From NCBI GenBank assembly GCA_005808665.1, contig SYLG01000129.1:1-46818 (forward strand): a stretch of 46,818 nt of DNA, written 5' to 3'. Shown one piece after another: positions 35,938 through 42,433 of this stretch (positions are counted from its first letter, which is position 1; every line of letters begins with the position of its first letter). The DNA is from Planctomycetia bacterium. Its GTDB lineage: Bacteria; Planctomycetota; Planctomycetia; Gemmatales; Gemmataceae. Under the pieces are notes generated by a model. It was not told the DNA's origin. It saw only the letters and a list, made by a program, of their open reading frames with translations, and did not search any database. The position numbers and the translations under genes are program-made.

Positions 35938-38580
35938 CTAGGGTTTCTCGCGGCAAAGGAATGATTTCTCAATCTTTTGGCCATCCAGTTCCGCACTTAC
36001 CCTGTAGACCAAATCCCGGGCTTTTTTACCATTCTCCGGAGTTTTGGCAACGGGATCAACCGCAAGGGGCACTGGAATTGGAACATCCCAATATATCGAC
36101 TGGAATCCTTCGTTATTCCTTCCCTTAAGCGAGGCAACAACCTTTCCGGCTGAATCCACAATGTTTATTTGGGGGTTACCTTTCGCTCCTCTGGGGACAT
36201 AAAAACCCAATTCCACCCCAGGCTTGGGATTCGTCCCAATAAAATCCAGGCCGGGTCTGATTTTGGTAACCCTTTGCAAGGGTAGCCTTTCAAAATCTGA
36301 AATGTCCAATAAGGAAAACTTCTTTGGAATCCCAAACTTTTGTACATAAATTGCAACCGATAGGTCCAGAATCCAGACTCCTCGACCATGCGTCCCTACA
36401 ACCAATTCGTCGGTTTTACGGGAAGCTGCCAAACCATGAATAGGAACCGTGGGAAGGGAGTCCAATTTGAAAAACGAATCCCCGGCGTTTACGCTGCACC
36501 AAAGTCCATTTTCTGTGCCCACAAACCACAATCCAGGCTGGGTGGGGTGTTCCAGGACAACATGAATAAACCCTGACCTTTCCCCATCCGCAGACAACCT
36601 GGAAGAAAGATCCAACCAGGATTTCCCTTCGTCATTCGTTTGAAAAAGGTAAGGGCGATCATCCCCCAGACGATGTCGGTCAACCCCAACCAAAGCAGAA
36701 CCTTTGCATTTGGCCAAGGGACAAATGGCCCGGATCCACCCAGGGGTATCTAGAGGTATGTGGCTCCCTACCTCGGACCAGGATTTCCCCAAATCTTTTG
36801 TAACATGGACCATTCCATCATCGGATCCGGCCCAAAGGCAATGGCGATCGATTAAATCCTCAGCTAAAACAGAGAGGTTATTTCCCGATTGGGAATCTGG
36901 CCCGGGAACGCCGCGGGTAAGGTCCGGGCTGATTCTTTGCCAGTTTGCCCCTTTTGCCTCGGAACGGAATACATGATTCGCACCAAAATAGATCGCATTG
37001 GGAGTATGTTTTGACATTATCAGAGGGGCATTCCACTCAAAACGCAAGGCAGGCTCTCTTTCCGATGGCCTTGGCCTGATATCAATACTAAGGCCTGCAC
37101 GAAAATCGTGGCGGCGCAATCCCCCATTTTGCGATTCAAGGTAGGCAATATGAGCCGTAAATGGATCCTGCTTGGCTTGAAATCCATCCGCACCAAAGAG
37201 CCGACTCCAATCCGTTGCCAGGATTCCTTCGGGACGGCCTGTCCGGGAAGGACCAATCCAGGTTCCATTGTCCTGGAGGCCACCCATTACCCGATAGGGT
37301 GTCCGTTCATCAACATCCACCGCATAAAACTGGGAAAGTACCATGTTATTGTGATGGACCCAACTCCTGCCACGGTCTTTGGAAGAATATAGTCCTCCAT
37401 CCGTACCCAGGATCATTGTCCGAGGTTCTTTTGGGTCAAAAACCAAGGCATGATGGTCAGGATGAACATTAAATCCCATATCGCTTCGAAATGTTTTACC
37501 TCCATCGGTTGTAAGAAACAGGGGAATGCCAAGGACCCAAATCCGTTTGCCATCCTTTGGGTCAACCCGAATCTGCCCAAAATAAAAGGGGCGTGGACAC
37601 AGGTCATTTAATTTGAACCATGAATCCCCTCCGTCAAGGGATTCAAAGATCCCCCCGGTTTCCACAGGTCCGGGAATACCCATGGTGGGAACCTGGTCCG
37701 GGACATTTACAATTTTGGTATCACCAGTCTGGATCACCGCCAAAATACGACCGGGTTTTGTTTTATCGAAATCGATGCCACACCTGCCATAGGTCCCCAT
37801 GGGAAGGCCCATAATCGCTTTTTGAAAGGATTTTCCGCCATCTTTTGAATGGTAGATCCCAGCTTCGGAGGCAAACTGCTCCTGAGGGTTTCCACCCGCA
37901 AAAGGACCACGCCGAACCCGGTAGGCACAGGCCACAATGTGGGAAGGATCGTGTGGATCCAACCGCACATCCACCGCCCCAACATCACCAGGAACCGGCA
38001 GGACCTGTTTCCAGGATTGGCCGGAATTCTCGGTTAAAAAGAGTCCCCGTTGGCCCCCTTCATTCCAAAGTGGACCAAGGGAAGCCACGAAAATGCGACT
38101 AGTGTTCCTGGGGTCAATGACGATTCGTCCAATGTGCCTCGATGAGGCCAATCCCTTTTTCTGCCAGGTTTGACCATTGTTGATTGAAACATAAACCCCA
38201 TCACCCTGGGAGACGCTGTTTCTTGGATTGGCCTCCCCGGTCCCAACCCAAATTTCCCTTGGGTTATTGGGGTTTATTGCCACCGATCCCAAGGTGGAGG
38301 TGGATTCCTTATCAAAGGAACAGGTCCAGGTGATGCCAGCATTTTCCGTGATCCAAAGTCCTGAAGAGGCCGTGGCCACTAACCAACGGGAACTGTTGGT
38401 TGGATCCAAGGCAATTTCGGTTATCCGCCCGCCCATATTCGCCGGCCCAATCGACCTGGCAGGCACGGGAATCGATTCCCCTCGGACCATTTCACCCAAA
38501 AATAGCCGACAGGAGCTTGGAACAAGGCCAATCCAAACCAGCAGGAAATAGACACCAAAAAAGCCCTTGGGCTTAAACAT
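35938..38580 (-). CDS. Exported BNR-repeat (sortilin/VPS10-like beta-propeller) protein
   Basis: An 880-aa exported protein with a signal sequence (FFGVYFLLVWIGLVPSSC). It contains many Asp-box/BNR repeats such as SINNGQTWQKKG, TENSGQSWKQV, SKDGGKSFQKA, SLDGGDSWFKL, TTDGGKTFRSD, SKDRGRSWVHH, TKDLGKSWSEV and TNDEGKSWLDL, which build one or two seven-bladed propellers as in sortilin/VPS10 and xyloglucanase-type glycosyl hydrolases. The last 150 residues are a beta-sandwich with GVELGFYVPRGAKGNPQINI, a planctomycete C-terminal arrangement. Whether it hydrolyses glycans or only binds is not clear. Its start shares one base with the stop of the 66-aa gene (TAATG). Confidence 0.88.
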   Translation of the reverse strand: MFKPKGFFGVYFLLVWIGLVPSSCRLFLGEMVRGESIPVPARSIGPANMGGRITEIALDPTNSSRWLVATASSGLWITENAGITWTCSFDKESTSTLGSVAINPNNPREIWVGTGEANPRNSVSQGDGVYVSINNGQTWQKKGLASSRHIGRIVIDPRNTSRIFVASLGPLWNEGGQRGLFLTENSGQSWKQVLPVPGDVGAVDVRLDPHDPSHIVACAYRVRRGPFAGGNPQEQFASEAGIYHSKDGGKSFQKAIMGLPMGTYGRCGIDFDKTKPGRILAVIQTGDTKIVNVPDQVPTMGIPGPVETGGIFESLDGGDSWFKLNDLCPRPFYFGQIRVDPKDGKRIWVLGIPLFLTTDGGKTFRSDMGFNVHPDHHALVFDPKEPRTMILGTDGGLYSSKDRGRSWVHHNNMVLSQFYAVDVDERTPYRVMGGLQDNGTWIGPSRTGRPEGILATDWSRLFGADGFQAKQDPFTAHIAYLESQNGGLRRHDFRAGLSIDIRPRPSEREPALRFEWNAPLIMSKHTPNAIYFGANHVFRSEAKGANWQRISPDLTRGVPGPDSQSGNNLSVLAEDLIDRHCLWAGSDDGMVHVTKDLGKSWSEVGSHIPLDTPGWIRAICPLAKCKGSALVGVDRHRLGDDRPYLFQTNDEGKSWLDLSSRLSADGERSGFIHVVLEHPTQPGLWFVGTENGLWCSVNAGDSFFKLDSLPTVPIHGLAASRKTDELVVGTHGRGVWILDLSVAIYVQKFGIPKKFSLLDISDFERLPLQRVTKIRPGLDFIGTNPKPGVELGFYVPRGAKGNPQINIVDSAGKVVASLKGRNNEGFQSIYWDVPIPVPLAVDPVAKTPENGKKARDLVYRVSAELDGQKIEKSFLCREKP

Positions 38581-38780
38581 TACTTTGCGACATCAACAAT
38601 GACCAACCGGGCCGCCTTGTAGGCATTCTTGATGGCGGTAGCCCGGGCCTCCATTTGCCCTTCATTAAAGAAACTTCCAGGCTGATTCCTGGCCAACCCG
38701 GCGAGCTCGAATGTCAGGGGCAAAAGGCGGATGAATTCCTGAATTTTTTGCTGTTGGGCTTGTGCGTTGTCTGCGCTCAT
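38580..38780 (-). CDS. 66-aa conserved-looking small protein
   Basis: A 66-aa soluble, helical protein beginning MSADNAQAQQQKIQEFIRLL, then LTFELAGLARNQPGSFFNEG and ending KAARLVIVDVAK. GGAG lies 8 nt before the ATG. An upstream extension of the frame runs antisense through the CBS gene and is rejected. The stop codon and the start of the BNR gene share a base (TAATG), a sign of translational coupling. I recall similar short planctomycete proteins with an IQEFxRLLPLTxELAGL pattern but no function. Confidence 0.65.
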   Translation of the reverse strand: MSADNAQAQQQKIQEFIRLLPLTFELAGLARNQPGSFFNEGQMEARATAIKNAYKAARLVIVDVAK

Positions 38781-38940
38781 GGGGAAAACTCCGCAATTGG
38801 CTTGGGGTTGGGATGTACCATTATCCCCCGTCATCTTACTCATGAACCGGTTTGATTCCAACTTGCCGATGAAGGGGATCCACCAGAACCCTATAAAGTA
38901 CCATTCAAGTTTCTCTGGTTTGGTCCTCCGGAGTGCGCTT
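38781..38940. promoter_or_regulatory. Divergent control region between the zinc/BNR operon and the CBS-oxidoreductase operon
   Basis: This 160-nt region must hold the promoters of two divergent operons. A TATAAA at 38892-38897 is placed 43 nt before the GTG of the CBS gene and could be its -10 element, but a matching -35 at normal spacing is not evident. No operator palindrome is obvious. Confidence 0.35.
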
Positions 38941-39447
38941 GTGGAATTGGCTCGCAATTTAAAAGTAGAATCTGTCGGCCAACTTGCGTTGATGCCACCG
39001 ATCGCTCTTTCCCCCAGACAAAGCGTTGAGGAAGCCATCCGGTTAATGCGAAGCCACGGATCCGGATGTGTTTTGTTAACCATTGAAGGCAGGTTGTCTG
39101 GAATTTTCACGGAAAAAGACCTACTTTGCCGGGTTTTGGTCCCAAGACTCCCCCTTGCCACGGCCCTGGCGGAGGTTTCAACCCAACCTCCCACTTTTTT
39201 GGGGGCGACGGACCCAGTGGGCTTGGCAATGGCACGAATGGTAGAAAATCGAACCAGACACATACCTGTGGTTGATGAATCCCAGCGACCGGTTGGGGTC
39301 CTTACTTCCCGTATCCTCCTCCGGTTTATTGCCCAACATTTTCCAAGAACCATCCATACACTGCCGCCTCGCCCATTTAAACCAAATTCTCAATTCGAAA
39401 ACGATGAGCCCCTTTGCCAGCAAACCATGAAAAAGGGGAGCCTGTGA
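38941..39447 (+). CDS. CBS-domain pair protein
   Basis: A 168-aa protein made almost wholly of one CBS pair (Bateman module). CBS1 spans about 22-80 (PPIALSPRQSVEEAIRLMRS, SGIFTEKDLLCRVL) and CBS2 about 85-145 (GLAMARMVENRTRHIPVVDE, PVGVLTSRILLRFI). Such modules bind AMP, ATP or related nucleotides and regulate partner enzymes. I start at the GTG at 38941 because GGAG lies 7 nt before it; longer frames would overlap the divergent gene's start. Its TGA overlaps the GTG of the oxidoreductase (GTGA), so the two are translationally coupled and the CBS protein probably regulates that enzyme. Confidence 0.87.
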   Translation: MELARNLKVESVGQLALMPPIALSPRQSVEEAIRLMRSHGSGCVLLTIEGRLSGIFTEKDLLCRVLVPRLPLATALAEVSTQPPTFLGATDPVGLAMARMVENRTRHIPVVDESQRPVGVLTSRILLRFIAQHFPRTIHTLPPRPFKPNSQFENDEPLCQQTMKKGSL

Positions 39448-41915
39448 ATCCAAAGCTCCTCCCTCCAGACCCTACCCATTTACCTACACCCAATTATCCA
39501 AACCCAACCTCCAAAACTTGCCATGAATGGATTCAAACGGGTGCCCCAGGATACAAACGGTTGCACCTTCGCATTGCAGGGGACTTGGGCGATGGGGTAG
39601 TTCAGCTTGCCAGGCTTGCCGCCCGCGGCTTTGCCATGCAAGAGTACCCCGTAGAACTTTGCATTCATCCCACCGCCTGGATTCGTGCTGACCCCGGTAC
39701 CCCTGGGGCTCACCTGATGATAGACCTCTATGCCCTGGTTCCCATGGAATTTCATTATTCCAATAGGCCCTATTCTGAGGAAACAAACGGTTTGGAGGGG
39801 GGAATTGATGGTTGGATTGCTTTTAGGTCCAACTCCCTGCCCCATGGATTTTCCCCACAAAAAGATCGGGTTTGGGTCCTTGTTGATGCGGATGCCCTAA
39901 GTGCCCGCCAATTAGCCATGCCTCACGACCTGCCTTGGGATACGGCAAAAAGGGAGGTTGAAATCCACTCCTTGTCCTTTCTGAACCTGCCAAAAGAACT
40001 GGACCTGGATAGACATTGGCGACGAACCCAGCGTTTACTTAGTCCCCGCGAATTGGCCCGTTGTCGCTCTTTTACACCACTTGGATGGATTGCCGGTCGT
40101 TTTGGCCTGGAAATGGGACCGTGGGATTTATGGATCGAAGAACATTTCCGGAATCACCCTCCCATGAAAGACATGGCCCAAAGCCTTCTCCGAGCCGGCC
40201 AACATTGTGCTTTAGCGTTAACCTCTTTCCAGCCAACCCATCCCTTTCAAAAACCTTCCCGCACCCTGCCCCTTTTGGACCGTGGAGTATGGAAAATGGT
40301 TTCAGGATTTGAAGCCCTGATAAATGGCCTTTTGGACTCCATTTCCAGGTTTTCAAAACAAATCCATATTTTCGCCCCACAAAGTCCAACTTATGCACCG
40401 TTGCTAATCCTGGCCTCCGGTTTGGAATCGCATGGAATCATCATTCACCCGGCCGAAAGCCCATGGGCGGCTGCGTGGAATGCCTGGGGTGCATGGATGG
40501 GTGGCGCATGTGTCCTTGTGTTGGGAGCCGGGGATTTTCGTCCATTACTTCCCCAGCAAAACCCCTTCCGATCGGGCGGTGGACTCGTTTTTCTCGACCC
40601 CGAAAAAAACCAGCCTTTGGAAATGCCAACTCAATTGGTAATTGATTCGCCTTCAGCACTCGAAACCGTCGCAAAAACCTGGATTCATTCCAGGGAAATC
40701 ACCCATGTTAACCATGTCCGTGATTTATGGAACCGCGAAGAACCCATTCACCTGGGATTAAAACTATCAAACCTTCCCAAAATAGCACACCATACGGCTA
40801 GGGAGCCCAAAAAAACAGAACTCGAATACATATCTCCCAAAACGGATTTACCACCAAACGGGCCAAATTCCAAAAATGGAAATGCACCCCATCCCAAGCC
40901 AACGCCCAAACATTCCCCCCTGAACACATTCCACTCCCCAAAGCAGGGTTGGTGCCCAGGTTGCGGGAATTACTCCATTTTGGAGCATTTGACTCCGTAT
41001 CTTGAAAACGGCGTTCCGGTAGTAATTCTCGGCGCTCCCGGATGTGCAGGGCTTTTGGGTGATTGGCTTGCAGTCCATCAGTCCCATTGCCCTACAGGTG
41101 CGGTGATTCACGCCGCTACCGGGCTTTTTCATGCCTGGCCCGAAGCCATGATTTGGGTTGCGGCAGGGGATGGCGAGCTCAGCGGCCCAAGCTTGGGGCC
41201 CTTTTTGGGTTTGGTCCGGCAAAACTACCCCATAAAGGTTCTCTTCGTAAACAACGAATGTGCCGCAGGTGCAAAAGGTTTGACAACCCCGGTCTCAGGA
41301 CCCCTGGATTACCACAATTCGGGAGGATCCCCGCTCCCTTTGGCAGGCTTACTCATTCTTGCCGGGGCAAGTTTTTATGCCAGGACTCTTGATGTCGAGG
41401 TCGACCAATTGGACGGAATCCTGGGCTCTGCATCCAGTCATCGAGGTTGCGCCATTGTCGAAATTTGGCAAAATTGCCGTGTCCACAACGACGCCAACCA
41501 TGACGACCTGATTGATCGCCATCTGAGCAAAAAACATCGCCTTGACCTGCATCCAGGCCGACCCATGAGTCCTGAATGCGATCCGGACAAAGGACTCGTT
41601 TGGGATGGTGGAATGCTCGTCGCAAATTCCCAATCGGGAACCGACCCTGGCCCATTTTTGATCCATGATCCGACTACCACAACGCCGACTCTGGCCGTGG
41701 CTTTGGTAGCGATGGGCCTGAATAACCCTGCTGAGCCAACCTGTTTCGGGATATTCGTGTCCAGGCGACTTCCTTCACGCACTCCTGCTTTGTCTATGGG
41801 GGGAAGTGGACCCAAAAACCCCAATTCAAAAGTCTGGATCCTGCCTGACTACCCGGAAACAAATGAGGCCTATGTTCCGGAAATGCTATTCCCCCCCATG
41901 GGGAGTACTCCATGA
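39444..41915 (+). CDS. Single-chain 2-oxoacid:acceptor oxidoreductase (gamma-like, shortened alpha-like, beta)
   Basis: An 823-aa fusion of the 2-oxoacid:ferredoxin oxidoreductase superfamily. Residues 38-230 are gamma-like, beginning RLHLRIAGDLGDGVVQLARL. Residues of about 283-440 resemble the start of the alpha (pyrimidine-binding) subunit: SGFEALINGLLDS, then HPAESPWAAAWNAWGAWMGG, where Glu338 sits at the position of the TPP-activating Glu; the rest of alpha, normally over 200 more residues, is absent. A low-complexity linker (450-500) precedes the beta domain, which keeps four cluster cysteines (Cys504, Cys507, Cys534, Cys678) and the TPP motif GDG 575-577 with Asn603-Asn604. The last 120 residues are unassigned. 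The GTG start is in a 4-nt overlap with the CBS gene, and the end overlaps the zinc-ribbon/CBS gene (ATGA). A TTG at 39414 is a weaker start. Substrate unknown; 2-oxoglutarate or pyruvate are possible. Confidence 0.83.
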   Translation: MNPKLLPPDPTHLPTPNYPNPTSKTCHEWIQTGAPGYKRLHLRIAGDLGDGVVQLARLAARGFAMQEYPVELCIHPTAWIRADPGTPGAHLMIDLYALVPMEFHYSNRPYSEETNGLEGGIDGWIAFRSNSLPHGFSPQKDRVWVLVDADALSARQLAMPHDLPWDTAKREVEIHSLSFLNLPKELDLDRHWRRTQRLLSPRELARCRSFTPLGWIAGRFGLEMGPWDLWIEEHFRNHPPMKDMAQSLLRAGQHCALALTSFQPTHPFQKPSRTLPLLDRGVWKMVSGFEALINGLLDSISRFSKQIHIFAPQSPTYAPLLILASGLESHGIIIHPAESPWAAAWNAWGAWMGGACVLVLGAGDFRPLLPQQNPFRSGGGLVFLDPEKNQPLEMPTQLVIDSPSALETVAKTWIHSREITHVNHVRDLWNREEPIHLGLKLSNLPKIAHHTAREPKKTELEYISPKTDLPPNGPNSKNGNAPHPKPTPKHSPLNTFHSPKQGWCPGCGNYSILEHLTPYLENGVPVVILGAPGCAGLLGDWLAVHQSHCPTGAVIHAATGLFHAWPEAMIWVAAGDGELSGPSLGPFLGLVRQNYPIKVLFVNNECAAGAKGLTTPVSGPLDYHNSGGSPLPLAGLLILAGASFYARTLDVEVDQLDGILGSASSHRGCAIVEIWQNCRVHNDANHDDLIDRHLSKKHRLDLHPGRPMSPECDPDKGLVWDGGMLVANSQSGTDPGPFLIHDPTTTTPTLAVALVAMGLNNPAEPTCFGIFVSRRLPSRTPALSMGGSGPKNPNSKVWILPDYPETNEAYVPEMLFPPMGSTP

Positions 41916-42433
41916 ATTGCCCCTGCTGCAATACCCGGGTCATTTCCGGTGATCCCTGGTGCCCCGATTGTTGGACTCCACTAGCCAACGAAGGATCTGC
42001 CATCCCCCAGGACCGGGTGGAATGGAGCTTGCTTCGTGACACCGTGGCTAAACTTGGCCCAAACAAGGTTCCCATTTATCCAAGAGCCACACCCGTTGGG
42101 TTTGTCCTGGAAGGAATGGAACGCGAAAAATCTACTTCTGCCATCCTTATCAGGGATAATGGTTCCCTGGCCGGAATCCTGACAGAAAACGACATCCTCA
42201 ACCGCATCGCTCCCCTTGGCCCCCAAGGTTTGGAGCTACCTGTTAGCCAATTCATGACTCAAAACCCCCATACGATCCAGGAACAGGAATACCTGGCCCG
42301 CGTCCTTCAAATCATGGACGGAACAGGCTACCGCCACCTCCCCGTGGTCCGTGGCGAAAAACCGGTTGGCATGATCACCCTCGGAGTCCTAATGCGCCAT
42401 TTTCGAGAACTTTGCACCGAGGCCCTTGGATAA
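41912..42433 (+). CDS. Zinc-ribbon plus CBS-pair protein
   Basis: A 173-aa protein with an N-terminal zinc ribbon (Cys3, Cys6, Cys17, Cys20 in MNCPCCNTRVISGDPWCPDC) followed by a CBS pair: residues of about 55-110 (PVGFVLEGMEREKSTSAILI, AGILTENDILNRI) and 115-170 (SQFMTQNPHTIQEQEYLARV, GYRHLPVVRGEKPVGMITLG). It overlaps the oxidoreductase stop by 4 nt (ATGA). The two CBS proteins that bracket the enzyme suggest dual nucleotide control of one redox reaction. The operon ends here, 15 nt before the convergent permease gene. Confidence 0.9.
   Translation: MNCPCCNTRVISGDPWCPDCWTPLANEGSAIPQDRVEWSLLRDTVAKLGPNKVPIYPRATPVGFVLEGMEREKSTSAILIRDNGSLAGILTENDILNRIAPLGPQGLELPVSQFMTQNPHTIQEQEYLARVLQIMDGTGYRHLPVVRGEKPVGMITLGVLMRHFRELCTEALG

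Follow-up and report, generated by a model that had tools for sequence, protein, structure and literature searches.

A conserved CBS-KorAB operon of planctomycetes and other phyla, and its single-chain derivative with altered catalytic motifs in one genus

The window analysed here is a stretch of 46,818 nucleotides (contig SYLG01000129.1) from a Planctomycetia bacterium of the family Gemmataceae. It carries a three-gene cassette at 38941-42433; all coordinates are positions of the whole window on its forward strand. The outer genes encode two CBS-pair proteins, CBS1 and the zinc-ribbon-bearing ZnR-CBS2 (CBS2). The middle gene encodes a single chain in which a shortened KorA (gamma-alpha) is fused to KorB (beta), the subunits of a 2-oxoacid:ferredoxin oxidoreductase (OFOR). 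An old four-gene module in the order CBS1-korA-korB-ZnR-CBS2 was shown to be ancestral to this cassette. The single-chain form is derived, and was found in one genus of lake-dwelling planctomycetes. We tentatively propose, with considerable reserve, that an OFOR of an undescribed, widespread CBS-gated operon may here have been turned into a non-catalytic or repurposed sensor. It would be a fused KorAB with [4Fe-4S] and thiamine pyrophosphate (TPP), receiving the adenylate state via two dedicated CBS proteins.

Results

The conservation of the module was examined at several taxonomic depths. A profile search found full-length ZnR-CBS2 in 61 of 99 relatives, and in 49 of these 61 its gene directly follows korB, in the same orientation. 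Of 61 genomes in the source family, 50 carry KorB together with CBS2, three KorB alone, one CBS2 alone and seven neither. In the genome counted as CBS2 alone, the contig with CBS2 in fact also has a korB fragment at its end. In a phylum-wide sample of 244 planctomycete genomes, a few of them shared with the 99-relative search, korB was directly upstream at 11/11 ZnR-CBS2 loci with E <1e-38, the source cassette being left out of this count. Both CBS flanks were present at 12 of the 15 planctomycete loci inspected outside the genus, with CBS1 about 2.7 kb off at one of the 12. Among KorB loci from many phyla, 9/79 have CBS on both sides, and these nine include Anaerolinea, other Chloroflexi, Dehalococcoidia, Hydrogenedentes and Planctomycetota metagenome-assembled genomes (MAGs). 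The cassette fits the module, as its korA/korB-derived gene lies between an upstream CBS1 and a downstream ZnR-CBS2 on the same strand. The initial annotation had taken the CBS proteins to be dedicated partners of the enzyme, a claim against which unlinked CBS genes in relatives would count. The linkage was found to be kept throughout Gemmatales, in further planctomycete classes and beyond the phylum. Therefore, it is a sound and well supported inference that an OFOR has dedicated CBS partners. No description of a CBS-KorAB module was found in the open-access literature (subscription journals lay outside the search), in agreement with the earlier remark that no described complex of such a plan was known. 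The operon is apparently widespread yet undescribed. A chance neighbourhood was also considered and was rejected: the other flanking genes are syntenic within the genus only, and the cassette alone is kept beyond it.

Some variant arrangements were observed as well. In a Poribacteria MAG (L078:2004-2978), both CBS genes stand in tandem upstream of KorAB, not one per side. Overlong CBS-matching frames adjoin korA or korB at L066:2763-4058 and L174:1-1980, which are possibly further fusions, or merely open frames.

Among the 99 relatives, the full-length fused chain occurred in two congeners alone, with 77% and 58% identity, and all other matches were ordinary KorB or KorA. When the N-terminal part was used as the query against 95 genomes of the family, the matches were again limited to the genus (fusion in 3/95). 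The possibility of a frameshift or assembly artefact was rejected because the same fused frame is present in the genomes of three species.

The active site was compared with that of StOFOR, in which Glu294a activates TPP, the 2-oxoacid carboxylate is bound by Thr256a of the YPITP motif and by Arg344a, and Mg-TPP is bound by GDG 89-91b and Asn118b (PMC5020499, Yan et al.). The fused chain (39444..41915, GTG start) has 823 residues. A KorA profile hidden Markov model of 603 positions aligned to it over positions 8-306 only, so that alpha domains I and II are incomplete and the C-terminal half of KorA is without an alignable counterpart. The gamma-like region (domain III, aa 39-260, 39558..40223), where the KorA match starts at aa 39, was modelled with a predicted local distance difference test (pLDDT) score of about 80 over much of its length. 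It is followed by the alpha domain I remnant (aa 285-360, 40296..40523), in which the KorA match ends. Here, the YPITP column reads PQSPT, or APQSP with one gap. The column of the TPP-activating Glu is occupied by Pro340 (codon 40461..40463), and Pro was found in both congeners as well. In the StOFOR alignment, Glu294 is the second Glu of an AEDE motif or within one residue of it, and that Glu is Pro in the fused chain. The Arg344a region has no safe counterpart, with a conserved PFR nearby. In place of the remaining alpha part there is a low-complexity linker (40524..40943), predicted to be disordered with pLDDT <50 over aa 346-502. The beta region (domain VI, 40941..41783) retains all four [4Fe-4S] cysteines, C504 and C507 of CPGC, C534 of GC and C678 of QNC, together with the Mg-TPP motifs GDG (575-577) and NNE (N604), in all three species. 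In the predicted model, the beta part is well formed, the gamma part moderate and the alpha remnant poor. The best PDB matches of the beta part were 5b46_B (StOFOR KorB, Z 26.5) and 6n2n_B (Magnetococcus KGOR, Z 25.7).

Pfam returned TPP_enzyme_C (E 2e-9) on the fused chain and no match to KorA-type alpha or gamma families. NCBIfam returned PorB_KorB (E 4e-24, residues 503-690) and the OAFO_sf alpha family (E 1e-4, residues 40-359). The assignment of a single-chain enzyme to the 2-oxoacid oxidoreductase family is therefore borne out in outline by the KorB-type match and the weak KorA-type match; what has to be added is that the single chain is a state derived within the genus, with a shortened alpha part and lost catalytic motifs. 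A working 2-oxoacid oxidoreductase, as first suggested, is doubtful for the fused copy and finds no support in its sequence. The Glu is replaced by Pro, YPITP is gone, some half of KorA, with domain II and the region of the carboxylate Arg, is absent or no longer recognisable, and a canonical unlinked KorAB is encoded elsewhere in the genome.

The ratio of non-synonymous to synonymous substitution (dN/dS) of the fused chain was about 0.16 between the source genome (G000) and G002, with 0.11 for gamma, 0.18 for the alpha remnant and 0.07 for beta. The linker is the fastest-evolving part. For ZnR-CBS2, dN/dS was about 0.03 between the same two genomes. The fused chain is under purifying selection and is not decaying.

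Erosion of the active site was also seen outside the genus. In related Gemmataceae cassettes, YPITP is replaced by FPFAP, TSRPP, TARPP, TAQPP, FPAPP, FPSAP or FPVAP. KorA in these sister cassettes is full-length, mostly with Glu and Arg. The L008/L040 cassette has lost Glu and Arg besides YPITP, and two other cassettes have Asp for Glu. All of the YPITP-replaced KorA sit in CBS2-linked cassettes. In KorA sampled elsewhere, YPITP, Glu and Arg are intact in 74/74 (12 with CBS and 62 without). The KorB tree placed the fused and eroded cassettes on one side of a branch with 99% support, to be read with caution given the long branches; the fused branch is too long for exact placement. The CBS2 tree served as a second line, in which the fused genus groups with the g19 and g29 cassettes (98% Shimodaira-Hasegawa-like approximate likelihood ratio test), and the CBS1 tree gave no resolution here.

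Other enzymes for the same step were found in most of these genomes. The source genome (4.48 Mb, estimated 100% complete) encodes an ordinary KorAB on another contig (C163), unlinked to CBS, and such a canonical unlinked KorAB is present in all three fused-chain genomes. A genome search found no SucA match in the source genome, and congener G001 has one. The 2-oxoglutarate oxidation of the source genome probably rests on the KorAB at C163. Among the eroded-KorA lineages, SucA was found in G020, G046, G030, G022 and G011; it was not found in G042 or in G057, whose assembly is incomplete. The eroded-KorA lineages mostly have another enzyme for this step, SucA or an unlinked canonical KorAB. In the KorB tree, the canonical KorB of the genus falls within the KorBs encoded by Gemmataceae cassettes. 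Therefore, the canonical KorAB of the genus probably lost its CBS flanks.

The outer genes encode CBS pairs, as first described, with two stretches of Pfam CBS (PF00571) in each. CBS1 (38941..39447, GTG start, 168 aa) gave E 3e-22. CBS2 (41912..42433, ATG start, 173 aa) gave E 2e-17 and has an N-terminal zinc ribbon (CPCC...CPDC) with its CxxC...CxxC cysteines at 41918..41971; CBS1 has none. The two proteins are dissimilar paralogues. The ribbon was kept in 24/24 CBS2 sequences examined. The first CBS of CBS1 retains the nucleotide-site motif GIFTEKD, and the Asp of this site is absent from the second CBS throughout the CBS1 sequences examined. Every CBS1 and CBS2 examined has one intact GIxT/S-x-x-D-type (G-h-h-T-x-x-D) site. 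The CBS1 model has a Bateman fold (pLDDT 86), and its PDB neighbours include AMP-bound CBS pairs. These fold neighbours and the one site motif per protein suggest adenine-nucleotide binding by CBS1 and CBS2. In G043 (L187, C1:630000-642000), the CBS1 and ZnR-CBS2 genes are on opposite strands, separated by about 3.4 kb that contains no KorAB; KorAB is about 95 kb away. In this arrangement, the two CBS proteins may act together.

The three genes, all on the plus strand, are joined by 4-nt stop/start overlaps, GTGA between CBS1 and the fused gene (39444..39447) and ATGA between the fused gene and ZnR-CBS2 (41912..41915), exactly as the initial annotation had read them. Promoter and terminator scans gave nothing above chance. 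Divergent from CBS1 is a gene for a 66-aa protein without a Pfam match (38580-38783, minus strand), and beyond it is one for a BNR/sortilin-like protein (35938-38580, minus strand). Both are syntenic in congener G001 (L032), and neither was found beside the cassette in other genera.

Discussion

In our view, the most plausible explanation of the cassette, although it falls somewhat short of being probable, is that a CBS-gated OFOR gave rise to a regulatory or redox unit with [4Fe-4S] and TPP under CBS control. In the ancestral module, CBS1 and CBS2 would contact KorAB and gate it, and the activity or assembly of the OFOR would be set by adenine nucleotides on the CBS1/CBS2 assembly. In the genus, korA and korB have been fused, the classical active site is lost, and the C-terminal half of KorA has disappeared or can no longer be recognised. 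The [4Fe-4S] cysteines and the TPP-Mg motif of beta have been retained under purifying selection, as have both CBS proteins. The separate canonical KorAB can carry ordinary 2-oxoacid:ferredoxin chemistry. Less certainly, the usual 2-oxoacid oxidation by the fused chain may have ceased. The chain would mainly hold cofactors, [4Fe-4S] and possibly TPP, whose state would be sensed jointly with that of the nucleotides on the CBS proteins. The target is perhaps the canonical KorAB or another partner.

Several observations weigh against this explanation. Some relatives, such as G043, G012 and G039, no longer have the operon in one piece; in G012, G008 and G021, CBS1 alone still adjoins KorAB. The second CBS of both cassette CBS proteins is without the nucleotide-site Asp. 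The KorA mapping is a weak similarity (E ~1e-16, in a database of 3 sequences). In the fused-chain model, the alpha region is of too low confidence to yield an active-site geometry. Because of this weak mapping and low-confidence model, there is room for a rebuilt active site.

In the main rival, the fused chain would still be an enzyme, but its substrate or reaction would be new. It would be an oxidoreductase or decarboxylase dependent on TPP and [4Fe-4S], its pocket remodelled and its activity controlled by nucleotides through the CBS proteins. The GDG/N motif and four cluster cysteines kept in all three species and the strong constraint on beta are in its favour. The sister cassettes, full-length in KorA with a changed YPITP and mostly with Glu and Arg, would fit a specificity that shifted first. 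However, TPP activation normally requires the Glu that is Pro here, and the chain lacks domain II and half of domain I. This rival is possible but rather unlikely. For the ancestral module, as seen in type-1 cassettes and not in the fused copy, it may be asked whether the CBS proteins, instead of sensing nucleotides, help KorAB to assemble or serve it as Fe-S/zinc chaperones. The invariant zinc ribbon of CBS2 and the second CBS of CBS1 without its Asp would suit such a role, but one intact nucleotide site per protein and the AMP-binding fold neighbours of CBS1 make it unlikely. It is also distinctly unlikely that the chain is a working nucleotide-gated single-chain OFOR, as the initial annotation had it. 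The beta part is homologous to KorB, the CBS linkage is conserved, Ser could replace the YPITP Thr in a shifted alignment, and the Arg of PFR lies near the lost Arg position. On the other hand, the catalytic Glu is Pro in all three species, roughly half of KorA is missing, and all three genomes have the canonical unlinked KorAB. Finally, a decaying duplicate (a pseudogene in the making) with CBS neighbours as bystanders is very improbable. The fused KorB has a long branch, and the linker and tail evolve fast, but the frame is open in three species at identities down to 58%, dN/dS is low overall and lower still in beta and CBS2, and the cluster cysteines are invariant.

OFORs stand where carbon flow meets low-potential electron flow. 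If several phyla encode a conserved pair of CBS proteins with KorAB, this meeting point would have a regulatory layer of its own. The Gemmataceae series, from intact motifs through loss of YPITP and loss of Glu/Arg to the fused and shortened chain, is a natural experiment on what persists once the catalytic constraint is lifted and the CBS partners are kept.

The cassette can be compared with three known systems. KorAB-type OFORs (StOFOR1/2, Magnetococcus KGOR 6n2n, TIGR03710 + TIGR02177) share with it the gamma-alpha-then-beta order, the beta fold, the cluster cysteines and GDG with Asn. In contrast, the cassette enzyme is one chain with Pro for Glu, lacks YPITP and the C-terminal half of KorA, and is encoded between two CBS genes. 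Single-chain pyruvate:ferredoxin oxidoreductase (PFOR; DaPFOR 1b0p, 6cio) is likewise one polypeptide with alpha-, gamma- and beta-type domains. However, PFOR is about 1,160-1,230 aa long, has the domain order I-II-III-V-VI and carries two further clusters, whereas the fused chain of 823 aa is ordered III-I(part)-VI and has a single cluster site. Descent from PFOR was rejected on domain order and length, and the differences in order, length and clusters indicate that the fusion was independent. The stand-alone Bateman proteins PAE2072 with AMP (2rif) and plant CBSX2 with AMP (4gqy) have the same tandem CBS fold as CBS1. Unlike these, the cassette has two dissimilar CBS proteins, one of them bearing a zinc ribbon, encoded together with one oxidoreductase.

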